In this document: in pieces, positions 4,957 to 15,022 of the stretch | How positions within the stretch are numbered: position 1 is the first letter of the stretch | Layout of the letters: each line of letters starts with the position of its first letter | Origin: a virus | IMG/VR virus record: IMGVR_UViG_3300013101_000098 | Span: 1-23,752 of that record | Strand: one strand, 5' to 3' | DNA: 23,752 nt | Notes under the pieces: model-generated | What the model was told of the DNA's origin: nothing | The model's database searches: none | Seen by the model: only the letters and a program-made list of their open reading frames with translations | Position numbers and translations under genes: made by a program

Positions 4957-5507
4957 AGCTTACGGCGCCTTCCTAATCGCGGAGATAATATGCTATTAAA
5001 GAATTCATACAAAGAATTCTTACTACGAAAATCAATACTATTTCTTACATCCATTCTCTGGCCAGTTGCTTTTGATAATTCATGTCCGGCAGCGGCAAGT
5101 GGTGGTTCCGGATTATCGCCCGGGTGTCCGAAACGTGTATCATCGATATCTGTGTCAACATCATCAACAGGAACTCCAGTGTTCTCTGGTGCCAACTTAT
5201 CGACCATTATCTGAAATATATCTTTAATTTGTCTATTTGTCAATGTTTTTTCGAGAAGAACAGATTCAGTTAAGTTCTCATTCATCCACTGGAGGATCTC
5301 ATCCTCATATCCGTTCTTAACAATCATGCCTGCTAACTTTGATACATTGCCCGATGGTTTTGCTGCTGGTTTTTCTTCAGGCTGGGGCATCTCTTCTGCG
5401 CTGGGTTCTTCTTTGCGACTGTTGTATGCATTTTTGGCGCGACCCATTAAATTCTTAGCAAGCCAGCGAGACGGTAGTTCGTTTAATTGTTGTTTATCCT
5501 GCGGCAC
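4953..5507 (-). CDS. Hypothetical protein, GTG start
   Basis: A 184-aa protein. The likely start is GTG at 5507, with GGAG 8 nt upstream and a 14-nt overlap with the preceding gene. The N-terminal third is basic, followed by a Pro/Glu/Ala-rich linker (about residues 34-52), a helical segment, and an acidic D-D-V-D-T-D-I-D-D stretch near residue 120. The C-terminus ends in a basic L-G-R-R-R-K-L. The mix of charged disordered segments resembles internal or scaffold-type proteins, but no family is recognised. A strong sigma70-like promoter sequence lies inside it. Confidence 0.68.
   Translation of the reverse strand: MPQDKQQLNELPSRWLAKNLMGRAKNAYNSRKEEPSAEEMPQPEEKPAAKPSGNVSKLAGMIVKNGYEDEILQWMNENLTESVLLEKTLTNRQIKDIFQIMVDKLAPENTGVPVDDVDTDIDDTRFGHPGDNPEPPLAAAGHELSKATGQRMDVRNSIDFRSKNSLYEFFNSILSPRLGRRRKL
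5215..5243 (-). promoter_or_regulatory. Sigma70-like promoter inside the 4953-5507 gene
   Basis: Minus-strand TTGACA (5238-5243), exactly 17 bp, then TATATT (5215-5220). It would start transcription about 250 nt upstream of the ligase gene. The spacing and -35 equal those of the three intergenic promoters of this class, but a coding-region location makes chance possible. Confidence 0.4.
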
Positions 5508-6098: not shown

Positions 6099-7496
6099 TT
6101 AATCCATGCTCTTTAAGAGAGACCGCAATGCCGTTGCCTTATTGGCTGTGTCCGACGGAGCGTTGTTAGTGGGTGGTGCTGATGTTACTACACTCTTCTT
6201 CTTTAAGTTATCCATAATGTTCTTAGTCTGGGCTTCAACTGCGCCATCTGCATCTTCGTCTAAATCGCTAATTCTTAGTGTCTTTGGACTAAATGCCAGA
6301 TCTACCTTGGAACCCACACCTGCACTAGAACGTGTCTTCATAAACTGTATCTGGTATCTGCCTGCTTCTTTCATGGACATTGTTGTAAAAATACCAATAA
6401 CATTATCTGCTGTGTTTACTTTGGATATACCCCCTGCAATGTGACTTGGGTCAAATTCAATCTCTTCGTATGATCCTCTGTTAAGCTGTGATGCCGATAC
6501 CATTAGTGCATTAAGCTCAACTGCAACATTCCTCAGTTCCTCAGAGACATATTTGTCCTTAACAAACTGATCAGTTGGAGAAATACGTGTGTTCAGTGGC
6601 ATCATTAAATCTAAGTAGTCAACTAATATACCATCTACCTTTATACCACTTTGTATTTCATATTCTCTTACATATGCTCTAATATCGTTTGCTGTGCAGC
6701 CACTTGGCATCTGCTTTAAGCGAAGATTTCCTTTGTGCTTCTTCTTGTACGATACCACCTTCATTGCTACATCTTCGATGTTGCGCATCACCGATGTTGT
6801 GTCATATCCCGTGACCATAGCGTCTATTCTCATGCCCGTTAACTTCTCACTGAGCTCTAGGGTTATGTACACTATGTTCAGTCCAGCAGTTGCCCAGTTT
6901 ACGGCTAAATTCTGAAGGAATAAGCTCTTTCCTGCGCCACTCTGTCCAGCAAATATTGTTATCTCACCACGGTTGAAACCACCATACAATTTATGGTCAA
7001 CATCACGCCAGCCAGTTGATATCATGCCACTGTTATCACGAATGGCCTCGAGTCTTGTCAGTGGATCATGGAAATAATCTGTTCCTAGATCCTTAACCAA
7101 TCCGATCTGAACAGCTTCTTTAATCTTCTCTTCTACTTCACCGTAATTACCCTCTTCGAGTAAATCAGGAGAGCTAAGTATGGCTCGCTCAAGTGCACGG
7201 TGACGTGAGAATGTTTCAAATTCGTCAAGGAACCAGTTCTCGTGTTTTGCAACTTCCGCTGGCTCAATTAATTCTAACCGTTTCTTTGTCTCGATGTAAA
7301 TTTGATCAAGTGTTGGTAACACAGAATACTTAGCGGTGTATTCATTTATGTATCTTACTACATTACTATTCTGTGCGTTGTGAAATAGCTGGTGATCTAA
7401 TATCGATATGCACCTAACTAATAAATCTGTATCACTAACTAAAAACCTTATATAATATTCTTCTTTGTCATCGTCGTATGTTACTGTATCTGCCAT
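6099..7496 (-). CDS. 41: Replicative DNA helicase (T4 gp41-like, DnaB family)
   Basis: A 465-aa protein of the hexameric DnaB/gp41 family, which unwinds DNA 5' to 3' ahead of the replisome and works with primase. Walker A is G-Q-S-G-A-G-K-S at residues 184-191, followed by a Walker B-type I-L-V-D-Y-L-D-L-M and the S-A-S-Q-L-N-R motif of the RecA-like ATPase core. The N-terminal 150 residues form the helical domain expected in this family. Length matches T4 gp41 (475 aa). It lies just after primase gp61 (9 nt gap), as helicase and primase often do. An AAGGAG is present about 13 nt before the ATG. Confidence 0.95.
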   Translation of the reverse strand: MADTVTYDDDKEEYYIRFLVSDTDLLVRCISILDHQLFHNAQNSNVVRYINEYTAKYSVLPTLDQIYIETKKRLELIEPAEVAKHENWFLDEFETFSRHRALERAILSSPDLLEEGNYGEVEEKIKEAVQIGLVKDLGTDYFHDPLTRLEAIRDNSGMISTGWRDVDHKLYGGFNRGEITIFAGQSGAGKSLFLQNLAVNWATAGLNIVYITLELSEKLTGMRIDAMVTGYDTTSVMRNIEDVAMKVVSYKKKHKGNLRLKQMPSGCTANDIRAYVREYEIQSGIKVDGILVDYLDLMMPLNTRISPTDQFVKDKYVSEELRNVAVELNALMVSASQLNRGSYEEIEFDPSHIAGGISKVNTADNVIGIFTTMSMKEAGRYQIQFMKTRSSAGVGSKVDLAFSPKTLRISDLDEDADGAVEAQTKNIMDNLKKKSVVTSAPPTNNAPSDTANKATALRSLLKSMD

Positions 7497-7505
7497 CCGT
7501 GGTGT

Positions 7506-8537
7506 TTACTCCTTGTAATGTTTACTCATCTTCCATTTGAGTTCTATTGCTACTGGATTTTGTTCGTCTGATTCAATTATAGAATGCAAGGTTAACAATC
7601 GTCCGTATTTTTCTACTGCTTTGGCAGCGTCCTTTGTATCATCTCCCCATTTAGGAAAACATACGTGCCATCCTTCTTTCAGTGCTACATTAACTAACGG
7701 GGTTCCGTTTTTGTCTTTGTCAGGACAAACAATTACCGTCTTTCCTAGACTATTAATTATTTGTATCTGTTCTGCGTTTAGTGTGTTGCCACAAGTACTT
7801 ATACCGTCTATGAAGTATGCATCAAATATTCCTTCATTTAGTATAACATATTTACGGTCGAAATCGTACTGAGCATCTAAGTTGTAAATATAGTCCGAAG
7901 GCATGTAATTTAAATACTTAGGAACTTCCTTAGAAGGCGGGTCACCATAATATCGACCAGTATATCCTACTATTTTATTCTTGTAATAAAACGGAAGAAT
8001 TAATCGCTTATTAAATGTTCCTGCTTTCCCGGGTGTCCAGTACAAATTCTCAAAATCTGTAAATTTCCTTGCCGCTGCATACTCTACTACTTTAGCAAAC
8101 TCTACATCGCTGCACTCATTGTCAATCCACTCGGTGATCGGTAATGCACCATCGGGCAATGCCATGGGTTTCCAACTTCGTGTGACAATTCCCCTTATTT
8201 TTATCTCAGGGGATGCTTCTACTTTGTTCTGAACCTTAAATAATTCAAAGTTTATCTTTTTGATATCGTGCTGAGTAACACCAATCTCTCTAAGGAACGA
8301 TTCGAACTTTTTACTGAAGGTAGAACCCACAACAAACTTAGCATCAAATCCACAATTGAAACAATTAAGTGCAATGTTGCCTTCGGGTGTAAATAACACA
8401 CCGAATCGTTTGCGGCGATCAGCAGATTCACCACGAGTATGACACATCATGCAATCGCGGCGCATCCAACCTTTTGGTGATTTTTTAAGAGGTCCTAAGT
8501 TCTGAAGGATCAGGTCTTTGACAATATCTTCTATCAT
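7506..8537 (-). CDS. 61: DNA primase (T4 gp61-like)
   Basis: A 343-aa protein matching T4 gp61 in length (342 aa). The N-terminal zinc-binding region has C29-x2-C32 and C59-x2-C62. A TOPRIM-type core follows, with V-I-L-N-E-G-I-F-D-A (catalytic Glu) and V-I-V-C-P-D-K-D-K (Asp-x-Asp). Primase makes RNA primers for lagging-strand synthesis with helicase gp41, encoded next. The ATG at 8537 is preceded by a strong sigma70-like promoter so close that the expected transcript start lies only about 6 nt upstream. Confidence 0.94.
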   Translation of the reverse strand: MIEDIVKDLILQNLGPLKKSPKGWMRRDCMMCHTRGESADRRKRFGVLFTPEGNIALNCFNCGFDAKFVVGSTFSKKFESFLREIGVTQHDIKKINFELFKVQNKVEASPEIKIRGIVTRSWKPMALPDGALPITEWIDNECSDVEFAKVVEYAAARKFTDFENLYWTPGKAGTFNKRLILPFYYKNKIVGYTGRYYGDPPSKEVPKYLNYMPSDYIYNLDAQYDFDRKYVILNEGIFDAYFIDGISTCGNTLNAEQIQIINSLGKTVIVCPDKDKNGTPLVNVALKEGWHVCFPKWGDDTKDAAKAVEKYGRLLTLHSIIESDEQNPVAIELKWKMSKHYKE

Positions 8538-9547: not shown

Positions 9548-9916
9548 ATGGAATTAAATGACATACAAGAAAATTTTCCTTTTTTAAGTTGTGTTCGTTG
9601 TCAGGATAACGAATACATCGGAATCATTCAGAACCACGATGACAAGATCATGAGCTTTTATGATTTCGATGTAATTAACTCAAGTAAGGAAAAACAGCAA
9701 TTCTTAAAGTATGGTGATACGTGGTGGTGGGAAAGTAACAGATTATTACCCATTAATGTATTTTTAACAGGAAAGATGAGACCATACCGGTATTGTCTAA
9801 AAACAGTTGCAATGAAAGATGTCACTGTTGAGTTTGGGCCTATTACAAGTTTGAATAACCTGATAAAGAAGCGCATTAAAAAACGACAAATACAACTTAT
9901 TAAGAAAGTTACTTAG
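9548..9916 (+). CDS. Conserved-type hypothetical protein, the only plus-strand gene
   Basis: A 122-aa protein, MELNDIQENF onward. A central G-D-T-W-W-W-E-S-N-R followed by L-P-I-N-V-F-L is distinctive and recalls a small protein seen in other marine T4-like phages. The C-terminus is strongly basic (K-K-R-I-K-K-R). It is transcribed against all neighbours: it diverges from the structural gene at 8575-9465 and converges on the DnaE-like gene, whose stop it overlaps by 8 nt. No ribosome-binding site is seen before the ATG; the late promoter core ends 7 nt upstream. The stop codon is TAG. Function unknown. Confidence 0.75.
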   Translation: MELNDIQENFPFLSCVRCQDNEYIGIIQNHDDKIMSFYDFDVINSSKEKQQFLKYGDTWWWESNRLLPINVFLTGKMRPYRYCLKTVAMKDVTVEFGPITSLNNLIKKRIKKRQIQLIKKVT

Positions 9917-10487
9917 ACGCTTGTTCAGTTAATAAGTTTAATTGTACCACAATTGCCATCGCATATGAAATTGCGTGACCACGTTTAAATACGTATGAGC
10001 CGTCTCCGGCTTTTAACCACACTTCTCTCTTTATTTTATCCCACGGTTCGTCCCATAGATACTTCTTCGATGGACGGATCAGGGCCAATACCATAGCTAA
10101 TTCTTCAACTGACTTGGGTCGTAACTTATTCACCAAATTAAAGTACGAATTAATATGAAACAATTCCTCAACAATACCACGAGATTCCAATAACGTCCAA
10201 TCGGGTTCTTTCATTAAATGTACAAGGTGTGCTTCATCTTGGACTTCTTCGTATAGGCTCACATTAAGCATGTCGACTTTGAAATATCCGATATCCTGTG
10301 CTGTCTTATAATCAATGTTGGCCTGGTTGGTAAATGGATCTTTGGGGATATCTTGAAAATACACGCCGGTGTTATGTTTCTCAGTTTTATGTATACGAGC
10401 TATTGTGCCGGCTGCATGTTGCAATCCGCTTAGAACAAGATCTCTGTCGGCGAAGTCGATGTCTACGTCAAAGTCAATTTTACTCAT
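9909..10487 (-). CDS. Mini-DnaE: collapsed bacterial DNA polymerase III alpha-like core
   Basis: At 192 aa it is about one sixth of E. coli DnaE (1160 aa), yet it keeps DnaE landmarks in order: D-V-D-I-D-F at residues 7-12 (compare P-D-F-D-V-D-F, which holds catalytic Asp401 and Asp403), K-H-N-T-G-V at 37-42 (compare K-H-A-G-G-V), F-K-V-D-M-L at 69-74 (compare V-K-F-D-F-L with Asp555), F-H-I-N-S at 110-114 with P124 and A-L-I-R-P at 135-139 (compare F-Q-L-E-S ... A-L-F-R-P), and F-K-R-G-H-A-I-S-Y-A at 167-176 (compare F-N-K-S-H-S-A-A-Y-A). The PHP, thumb, OB and tau-binding regions are absent. Similar short proteins appear to occur in other marine T4-like phages as hypotheticals. Whether it is catalytic is open. 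It overlaps the zinc-finger gene upstream (ATGA). Confidence 0.72.
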   Translation of the reverse strand: MSKIDFDVDIDFADRDLVLSGLQHAAGTIARIHKTEKHNTGVYFQDIPKDPFTNQANIDYKTAQDIGYFKVDMLNVSLYEEVQDEAHLVHLMKEPDWTLLESRGIVEELFHINSYFNLVNKLRPKSVEELAMVLALIRPSKKYLWDEPWDKIKREVWLKAGDGSYVFKRGHAISYAMAIVVQLNLLTEQASK

Positions 10488-12136: not shown

Positions 12137-12478
12137 TTATAATATTTCGTCAGTATAACACGTTTGTGACAACATGTCAAGTGATGGATTGTGTTCGTAC
12201 CCGAAGAACCTGTTTTGAACATTATAATTAATGTGATCAAGTAATGTCTTTCCGGTTGTTATCTTAACAAAGGACTCTGCTTCACCATACACAAAATCCA
12301 TAACAACTCTCACGTTAGTAGTGTGATACATATCGTTTGTATCATAGCAGTTAAGGTAAAAATCTACCCTGGGCAGTAGATACATCAGGAAAGCCTCAAC
12401 ATTACCGATATCATGTGGCATTACTGATGTTAACAGCACCTTAGGTGTCTCTATGTCTTCCTCTTTGTCTATTCTCAT
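12137..12478 (-). CDS. Hypothetical protein downstream of uvsW
   Basis: A 113-aa protein, MRIDKEEDIE onward, with alternating strand- and helix-like segments (V-D-F-Y-L-N-C-Y-D-T, R-V-V-M-D-F-V-Y-G). The ATG overlaps the uvsW stop (ATGA), so translation is coupled to the helicase. Its 3' end carries the promoter of the next gene. No motif or family recognised. Confidence 0.72.
   Translation of the reverse strand: MRIDKEEDIETPKVLLTSVMPHDIGNVEAFLMYLLPRVDFYLNCYDTNDMYHTTNVRVVMDFVYGEAESFVKITTGKTLLDHINYNVQNRFFGYEHNPSLDMLSQTCYTDEIL
12152..12180 (-). promoter_or_regulatory. Sigma70-like promoter for the 11617-12111 gene and gp62
   Basis: Minus-strand TTGACA (12175-12180), 17 bp, TATACT (12152-12157). 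The -35 overlaps a 5-bp inverted repeat (TGACA-TGT-TGTCA). Predicted transcript start is near 12145, about 34 nt before the TTG start. It lies in the 3' end of the 12137-12478 gene. Confidence 0.75.
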
Positions 12479-13911
12479 ATATAATCCATTTTTGTAATGT
12501 TAAATTTATATCCAACTTCTCTATAAAATTTCTTGCGCTTAGTCAGGTGCCGTTTGGAATATTTGCAGGTGGATGTGATGTCAAACACATTTACAAAATC
12601 CTTATCCTCGGCAACCCTTAGTCCACGGCCAATCGACTGTATCACTCTCACAAAACTCTTGCCGGGTTCGAACAAGGCCAGGTTAAAAATTCGAGGAATA
12701 TTAATTCCAGTTGATGCAACACCATATGTTGCAATAACTAATTTATTGTCCTCTGTCTGAATTGATTTATACTCGGTTTTACGTTCGGTTGCCTTTACTC
12801 TTCCTGAGATAAACGTGCCGCCTGTTATTGCAGCGAGCATTTCTCCTGTCTGCACACGATCAACGAGTATAAGTGTGTTACCATCGGCAACCATATCACC
12901 TAACAACGAAGCAATAAATTCCACGCGCTCTTTGTTTGTTGTAAGCCATTTTAATTCTGATTGATAACTGTCAAATCCCCCAGGATCCTTTAACTGATAC
13001 ACACTAACATGACAATTGGATAGGTGCCCGGCTTCTTGTAAATCTACAGCCCTAATCTCTCCTGTGGTAGGACCAATACATGCCGTTACACTTACTCGCT
13101 CGTGTTCTTCTTCCGGTAATGTTCCTGTCAGTCCCCATCGTAATGCACAACTAGCAAACGGACCTGACAATAGTTTACGAAGAACATCTGCTTTTGCTTT
13201 GTGTACTTCATCTACTATCACACAGACAACACCATCAAGAAATCTCTCAATGGTTCCGTCTTTCATCTTGTTCATAACCTCAAGACTTTGCCATGTACAA
13301 ATGGTGTGCATCTTGCCTATCTCTTTTTTGTCACCATAATAAACACCTACATCTAAATTGAAGTTAATGTAGTCTTCTTCGGTCTGGGTAACAAGGTCTT
13401 TTGTCGGAACAATCACTATTGTACGACCGTATGGTTCAACACGGTGTGATAATATAGCTGTTACAATTGTCTTGCCGCCTGCGGTGGGACAAATACTAAG
13501 AGATTGTGGGTTGGAAAAATAACTATTGACAAGTTCTACCTGATAGTCTCGTAACTCGATTGATTCTCCGGCTTTGGTGTGGCCTTCGGGCCATTTCAGG
13601 TGCGAATAGCTATCTTTATTCACTTCTTCAAATTCATAGACGTGCTGTATTCGTTTGTCGTCTAACGAAATACTGTATCCAGCATCTGTGATAATAGGAA
13701 GGAGTTTATCAAGAAGATTGATATAGGTGCGACCACCTATATCACAGAAATTCATCATTCCGTTCCATCTTCCCAATTTAAATGCAGGAGTGTGTCTTGC
13801 ATAAGGCAAGAAATATTCTAATTCCTTTACTAACTTTCTACGGATCATCGGATCTAGTCCATTTATCCGTACGTTCACTTCATCTTTTATGTCAATTACA
13901 CACTCTTTCAT
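12475..13911 (-). CDS. uvsW: UvsW-like superfamily 2 helicase
   Basis: A 478-aa SF2 helicase close in length to T4 UvsW (about 500 aa). Motifs in order: the Q-like L-R-D-Y-Q before motif I, motif I P-T-A-G-G-K-T near residue 141, motif II D-E-V-H, motif III G-L-T-G-T-L, and a motif VI region Q-S-I-G-R-G-L-R. An N-terminal region of about 110 residues precedes the helicase core, as in UvsW. UvsW unwinds R-loops and recombination intermediates and helps switch T4 from origin- to recombination-dependent replication. AAAGG lies 6 nt before the ATG. It is separated from the gene upstream by 79 nt containing a hairpin and an AT-rich stretch. Confidence 0.93.
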   Translation of the reverse strand: MKECVIDIKDEVNVRINGLDPMIRRKLVKELEYFLPYARHTPAFKLGRWNGMMNFCDIGGRTYINLLDKLLPIITDAGYSISLDDKRIQHVYEFEEVNKDSYSHLKWPEGHTKAGESIELRDYQVELVNSYFSNPQSLSICPTAGGKTIVTAILSHRVEPYGRTIVIVPTKDLVTQTEEDYINFNLDVGVYYGDKKEIGKMHTICTWQSLEVMNKMKDGTIERFLDGVVCVIVDEVHKAKADVLRKLLSGPFASCALRWGLTGTLPEEEHERVSVTACIGPTTGEIRAVDLQEAGHLSNCHVSVYQLKDPGGFDSYQSELKWLTTNKERVEFIASLLGDMVADGNTLILVDRVQTGEMLAAITGGTFISGRVKATERKTEYKSIQTEDNKLVIATYGVASTGINIPRIFNLALFEPGKSFVRVIQSIGRGLRVAEDKDFVNVFDITSTCKYSKRHLTKRKKFYREVGYKFNITKMDYI

Positions 13912-14524: not shown

Positions 14525-14600
14525 TGGTGTCCCTGGCAGGACTTGAACCCGCGCTCCAAGGATTTAGAATCCCCGGCTCTACCAACTGAGCTACAGGGAC
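14525..14600 (-). tRNA. tRNA with CUA anticodon (putative amber suppressor)
   Basis: A complete 76-nt cloverleaf with encoded CCA: acceptor GTCCCTG/CAGGGAC, a 4-bp D stem (GCTC/GAGC) with an 8-nt loop holding GG, anticodon stem GGGGA/TCCTT (two G-U pairs at the base), loop TTCTAAA, 5-nt variable loop, T stem GCGGG/CCTGC with TTCAAGT, discriminator A73. Standard numbering places the anticodon at 14565-14567 as CTA, which would read UAG. Reading the loop one base earlier gives TCT (Arg), but this loses base 26 and leaves mismatches at both ends of the anticodon stem. Its 5' end contains the stop codon of the NADAR gene. The amino acid it carries cannot be told from sequence. Confidence 0.88.
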
Positions 14601-15022
14601 GTTATCTCTTCTCTAATCTTCATTAATAACTGTCCTAAATGATTGGAACCCTTGCCTCTGCAAACGCCCCAATACGTATCGCCCCAATGATTGCCTTCGA
14701 CAATATTAAAGCCCTTAGTTAATAATAACTTCTCTTTCAATAAAGGTCTACCGAATTTTATTCTAAGAATATCCTCCATTACACCCAATTTTACATCGTC
14801 CCAGTCTGGGCGCATCTTAATATGTCGACCACGTTGCTTGGCCTGTGCCGGACTACCTGCATATTTAACCGACATCCGGTCTTCGTTTATCGTCGATTTT
14901 GCTGCTTGATATGCATGTTCTGACGATGGATACAGAATTCCTTCATATGTTACCTTACAATAATAGAAATTCGATAGAAAGTGAAATTCATCTTCAAAAT
15001 TATCAATTAAGTTGGGCATCAT
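14591..15022 (-). CDS. NADAR (YbiA/DUF1768) domain protein
   Basis: A 143-aa single-domain protein of the NADAR family: F-L-S-N-F-Y near residue 14, Y-P-S-S-E-H-A-Y-Q-A-A-K around residue 31, a central K-x-R-G-R segment, and the C-terminal G-D-T-Y-W-G-V ... G-x-N-x-L-G-x-L-L-M-x-I-R signature. Family members act on ADP-ribose-linked or riboflavin-pathway N-glycosides, and some reverse guanine ADP-ribosylation of DNA by DarT1-type toxins. In a phage a role against NAD- or ADP-ribose-based host defence is plausible but inferred. It overlaps the UvsY-like gene by 20 nt, and its TAG stop lies within the tRNA gene. Confidence 0.88.
   Translation of the reverse strand: MMPNLIDNFEDEFHFLSNFYYCKVTYEGILYPSSEHAYQAAKSTINEDRMSVKYAGSPAQAKQRGRHIKMRPDWDDVKLGVMEDILRIKFGRPLLKEKLLLTKGFNIVEGNHWGDTYWGVCRGKGSNHLGQLLMKIREEITSL

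Follow-up and report, generated by a model that had tools for sequence, protein, structure and literature searches.

A 192-residue phage relative of DnaE, putatively the metal-binding half of a minimal DNA polymerase III alpha split in two

Introduction

What use could a phage make of a 192-residue protein that carries the active-site motifs of a bacterial replicase of about 1160 residues? The question is raised by an uncultured virus, IMG/VR record IMGVR_UViG_3300013101_000098, of which we analysed a fragment of 23,752 nt (positions 1–23,752 of the record, hereafter the window). The coding sequence of the protein lies on the minus strand at 9909–10487, gives 192 residues when counted from the ATG and belongs to PHROG_11778. 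To our knowledge, C-family polymerases are otherwise very large single chains. A sequence-only reading had linked the protein to DnaE and offered several roles for it, from a decoy of the host polymerase to a minimal polymerase.

Part of the answer is in the literature. Iyer et al. (2021) described 'group 2.2' jumbo phages that carry a minimal Pol III alpha in two proteins encoded apart, an N-terminal NTP-binding half and a C-terminal Mg2+/template-binding half, with a family B polymerase alongside, and proposed that it synthesizes one strand or acts in repair (PMC7824862). One half had been noticed earlier as a 'truncated' Pol III alpha in genome papers (PMC5259590, PMC6102473). We refer to the two halves as the N-unit and the C-unit. 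The split family is thus already known, and the window protein is an added member of its C-terminal, Mg2+/template-binding unit; the large relatives examined here have, like the published phages, two distant genes and a family B polymerase and lack further Pol III domains. What differs is that the sequence in the window is new and comes from an uncultured virus. New in the present work are the residue-level split point, the near-fixed gene neighbourhoods and the abundance of the family. Our literature search found no report of a biochemical study or test of the split enzyme.

The C-unit is related to the palm and fingers of DnaE

Residues 3–189 of the window C-unit align to positions 4–194 of the 197-position profile PHROG_11778, annotated as 'DNA polymerase', with E = 3.3e-66, and the 1190-position PHROG 'DNA polymerase' profile phrog_405 is matched as well (E = 6e-6). 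As a single sequence, the protein gave nothing meaningful in a phmmer search against the PDB, and in Pfam only PF17657 at E = 0.022, below the cut-off. A family profile built from 42 relatives and searched against all PDB sequences returned DnaE only at E ≤ 0.001 (best 3.5e-4), and DnaE made up nine of its ten matches.

An AlphaFold model computed from 39 sequences (mean pLDDT 93.5) contains the Pol-beta-type palm with PDxDxDF and a third-Asp strand that characterizes the C family. The first 11 Foldseek matches of this model were all DnaE or PolC, as were the first 16 rows from VIA-align, with Z scores of 5.8–9.4 against 3.6 for the next, unrelated row. The palm superposition that the sequence-only reading had proposed as a check extends over the entire C-unit, which fits the palm and fingers of DnaE from E. 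coli (398–781) and M. tuberculosis (416–808) and of PolC (967–1296). From the PHROG, PDB-profile, Foldseek and VIA-align results we therefore conclude that the C-unit is a true DnaE-type homologue, as had been supposed from the letters.

With bacterial DnaE (Z about 9) the C-unit shares the palm and the front of the fingers, including PDIDxDF, the third Asp, HxxG, RPxx and FxxxH, whereas the PHP domain, GS motif, thumb, C-terminal fingers, OB domain and the clamp- and tau-binding regions are all missing. PolC of G. kaustophilus (3f2b and 3f2c) has the palm fold in common with it (Z 8.5–8.8), but at 11–13% identity, lower than for DnaE, and is one long chain with an exonuclease of its own. Among named phages PA5oct/PAC2 comes closest, with 56% identity. 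Purifying selection on the gene is strong, the median dN/dS being 0.045 over 228 close pairs. In GenBank the C-unit of RaK2-like phages is often labelled 'hypothetical protein' or 'putative membrane protein'.

The catalytic residues are invariant

The DnaE motifs quoted in the sequence-only reading are present in the window protein, and all three catalytic aspartates are retained. In the window, D7-V-D9-I-D11-F12 (10452–10469, minus strand, as for the segments that follow) corresponds to PDIDxDF of DnaE, H38-N-T-G41 (10365–10376) to the K-H-x-x-G-V segment, and R138-P-S-K141 (10065–10076) to the finger segment F-R-P-G-P. F167-K-R-G-H171-A-I-S-Y175 (9963–9989) is equated, by alignment and conservation, with Y-G-F-N-K-S-H-x-x-x-Y, while K70-V-D72 (10272–10280) brings the third aspartate. 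D7, D9, D11 and D72 are invariant in 143/143 full-length distinct relatives, and so are H38, G41, K70, R138, P139, K141, F167, H171 and N184.

In the profile alignment, Taq D463 and D465 stand opposite the first two aspartates of D-x-D-x-D, and Taq D618 opposite that of YFKxD. We take these to be the catalytic residues of Taq DnaE, equivalent to D401, D403 and D555 in E. coli. The catalytic trio of the C-unit is thus D7, D9 and D72, and not D9, D11 and D72 as first assigned; on the alignment, D11 is a further invariant aspartate outside the catalytic pair. Judging from the superposition, D7, D9 and D72 should lie clustered in the C-unit model.

The thumb segment of DnaE (about 100 residues between the DxD and HxxG motifs) is absent, and about 26 residues stand in its place. 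As the chain begins at the DxDxD motif, the C-unit is also without the GRGS-bearing front half of the palm. GRGS, the GS motif, occurs nowhere in the 192 residues, which makes the C-unit a subunit related to the C family rather than a complete member of it.

A separately encoded N-unit completes the DnaE core

The GS motif is carried by a separate protein, the N-unit, found in phage CBB and then in many relatives. GRGS is present in all 83 distinct N-units, and in 82 of them the stop codon follows after 33–35 residues, typically with an end of the form EFLK or EFLR. The chain stops just ahead of the point where DnaE runs on as FERFLNPERxSMPDIDxDF. PF07733 is matched by 52/52 aligned N-units; in those of the 12 large genomes described below, the match above the cut-off extends only up to about 101 of the 260 positions.

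In the N-unit model (pLDDT 87.7), residues 82–176 superpose on DnaE 279–393 of E. coli and 306–413 of M. tuberculosis with Z scores of 10–12. Since this match abuts that of the C-unit in E. coli numbering (about 279–393 and 398–781, only a few residues apart), the two halves tile the DnaE core. Residues 1–81 of the N-unit (for example in that at 4959–5486 of locus L093) lie outside nearly all structural matches listed and form a putative phage-specific domain. In Vibrio phage 2.275.O the annotated start of the N-unit appears to be too late.

Both halves occur in the same large genomes, and each at hundreds of viral loci

Co-occurrence was assessed in 12 large records, namely eight named phages and four IMG/VR contigs of 259–462 kb. 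All 12 hold exactly one C-unit and one N-unit, far apart, a pattern that partly reflects inherited common descent, and all 12 encode a family B polymerase (PF00136). PHP (PF02811) and HHH_6 (PF14579) were found nowhere in these genomes, with positive controls. On the window, a 23.7-kb fragment showing only part of its genome, neither an N-unit nor a family B polymerase is present.

Organism counts for N-unit and C-unit matches agree across the phage collection; one C-bearing Klebsiella record of only 109 kb apparently has no N-unit. IMG/VR holds at least 567 C-unit loci and at least 581 N-unit loci, and among 257 loci there was no fused N+C protein and no pair of units side by side. Alishewanella phage Slicko01 (L092), at 141 kb below the 200-kb jumbo limit, has both halves, so the split system extends beyond jumbo genomes; the C-unit of this phage lies near an RFC-like clamp loader gene. 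When 84,980 species genomes were scanned for the C-unit, five contigs came up; all are from metagenome-assembled genomes and are probably phage contigs binned with bacteria. The labels on these contigs (L253–L257) are Cloacimonadota, Neomarinimicrobiota, Gammaproteobacteria and Methylophilaceae.

Gene neighbourhoods are nearly fixed

Neighbours of the C-unit were counted at 80 loci flanked on each side by 5.5 kb or more, and lie at near-constant distances. Adjoining the C-unit at 79/80 loci is a gene for a C2H2 zinc-finger protein of 223 residues (PHROG_11058; 10484–11155, minus strand). In the window its stop codon overlaps the C-unit start as ATGA, so the two genes may be translationally coupled, and the zinc-finger protein is a candidate third subunit. 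Also on the minus strand are genes for a conserved 152-residue protein (PHROG_11758; 11162–11620; 77/80 loci) and a further conserved protein (PHROG_11279; 11617–12240; 75/80). Upstream again is a UvsW-like helicase (12475–13911, minus; 73/80). At the other end, a plus-strand gene for a 122-residue protein (PHROG_11637; 9548–9916; 79/80) overlaps the 3' end of the C-unit with its own 3' end and is convergent with it wherever found. Beyond it, on the minus strand, are genes for a DnaG-type, gp61-like primase (7506–8537; 77/80) and a DnaB-type, gp41-like replicative helicase (6099–7496; PF03796, E = 1e-20; 74/80). The sequence-only reading had placed the C-unit in a gp62 neighbourhood. The 152-residue protein was considered as a candidate gp62, but even a 21-sequence profile gave no convincing Pfam or PDB match to confirm it.

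The N-unit has a conserved setting of its own. At 50 well-flanked loci it is always accompanied by a GroES-like gene and by a small conserved gene (50/50), and in 45/50 by a gp44-like clamp loader. In most genomes the GroES-like co-chaperonin gene follows two genes downstream of the N-unit (for example 6671–6997 in L086, 5017–5367 in L087 and 2841–3182 in L091).

A proposed two-chain enzyme beside a family B replicase

We propose that these phages possess a phage-specific DNA polymerase III alpha of the C family of which just the catalytic core is left, divided between two chains with separate genes. The C-unit would provide the front part of the fingers and, as metal ligands, D7, D9 and D72, while the phosphates of the dNTP would be held by the GRGS loop of the N-unit; together they would rebuild a Pol-beta-type site at which a 3' end could be extended by two-metal catalysis. 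Our computations show the homology and the fold, the intactness of the active site, the partner and the way the two tile DnaE, their co-occurrence and the selection on the gene. The C-unit is most likely the metal-binding subunit of an active two-chain nucleotidyl-transfer enzyme, whose assembly, catalysis and biological role we infer.

Other readings were weighed against this one. That the gene is a decaying relic of a captured host dnaE, or its motifs a chance match, might be suggested by its small size, overall sequence divergence and score below the Pfam cut-off; it is already contradicted by the fold match, the occurrence at no fewer than 567 viral loci, the invariant active site and the dN/dS of 0.045, and we give it practically no weight. 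The last two observations also bear out the earlier remark that intact aspartates would be odd for a relic. A complete single-chain polymerase made of the C-unit alone is very improbable. The C-unit does carry all three catalytic aspartates and folds confidently by itself, but the GS motif and its palm segment reside on a second conserved protein in 12/12 large records. The earlier suggestion of a minimal polymerase therefore holds for the two-protein set, in which the N-unit brings the GS motif for the dNTP triphosphate, and fails for the C-unit alone.

The two halves could also assemble into something DnaE-like that is not a polymerase, namely a scaffold or decoy that binds the clamp loader, tau or exonuclease of host or phage. 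Most parts of DnaE for processive synthesis are indeed missing, a family B replicase is already there, and the N-unit gene is close to that of the clamp loader. The parts of DnaE that bind the clamp and tau are known, and they are the very parts that are missing; the C-unit moreover occurs in phages of very different hosts. A decoy would have no need of the invariant triad, K70, HxxG, RPxK and FKxxH in more than 140 sequences, nor of GRGS in 83 partners, so the decoy of the host polymerase first suggested leaves the strict conservation of active site and partner unexplained, and we consider this whole non-polymerase reading improbable. Somewhat less so, if still unlikely, is an active nucleotidyltransferase that works on another substrate or needs no template, such as a terminal transferase-like, DNA-end-processing or small-molecule enzyme. 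The nucleotidyltransferase core of DnaE is of the Pol-beta type, a superfamily with many template-independent members, and the thumb is gone; yet the finger segments R138-P-x-K and F-K-x-x-H are kept, and the C-unit gene sits in a replication operon.

As a split polymerase, the pair would act alongside the gp43-like family B replicase of the phage. Because the C-unit operon contains the primase, helicase and UvsW genes and the N-unit lies near the clamp loader, the likeliest job of the enzyme would be a short-range accessory one at the fork, such as the extension of RNA primers or the filling of gaps, after which the family B polymerase would take over. This assignment, drawn from gene order, is tentative. 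A precedent is B. subtilis DnaE, which works beside PolC in brief lagging-strand primer extension and then hands over to the main replicase; the analogy is functional only, as that DnaE is a full-length single-chain cellular enzyme and the role of the phage pair comes from gene order (PMC5627055). In its full form the proposal is of an active C-family heterodimer of about 190 + 175 residues, the smallest polymerase of that kind, which a whole class of giant phages would dedicate to extending primers or filling gaps before family B takes over; this is possible and is offered with more reserve than confidence. Such a heterodimer would be without thumb, PHP, OB and clamp-binding region; the loss of these and of the C-terminal fingers makes DNA grip and processivity hard to account for, which counts against the polymerase reading.

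If the proposal is true, a two-part enzyme of about 370 residues, kept intact by hundreds of phage lineages beside a family B replicase, would define how small the catalytic core of a bacterial replicase can be, and these phages would run bacterial-type and T4-type polymerases together. The published suggestion that the split enzyme models an ancestral one would become directly testable.

In RaK2 and CBB the C-unit block also includes, immediately upstream of UvsW, a gene for a DnaQ/epsilon-like exonuclease (625–1446 in L083 and 3818–4663 in L085), which is rare at that position in other C-unit loci. Elsewhere in the window, the minus-strand gene at 14591–15022 encodes a 143-residue protein that matches PHROG_1017 ('unknown function') and by eye has the look of a NADAR (YbiA-like) protein.
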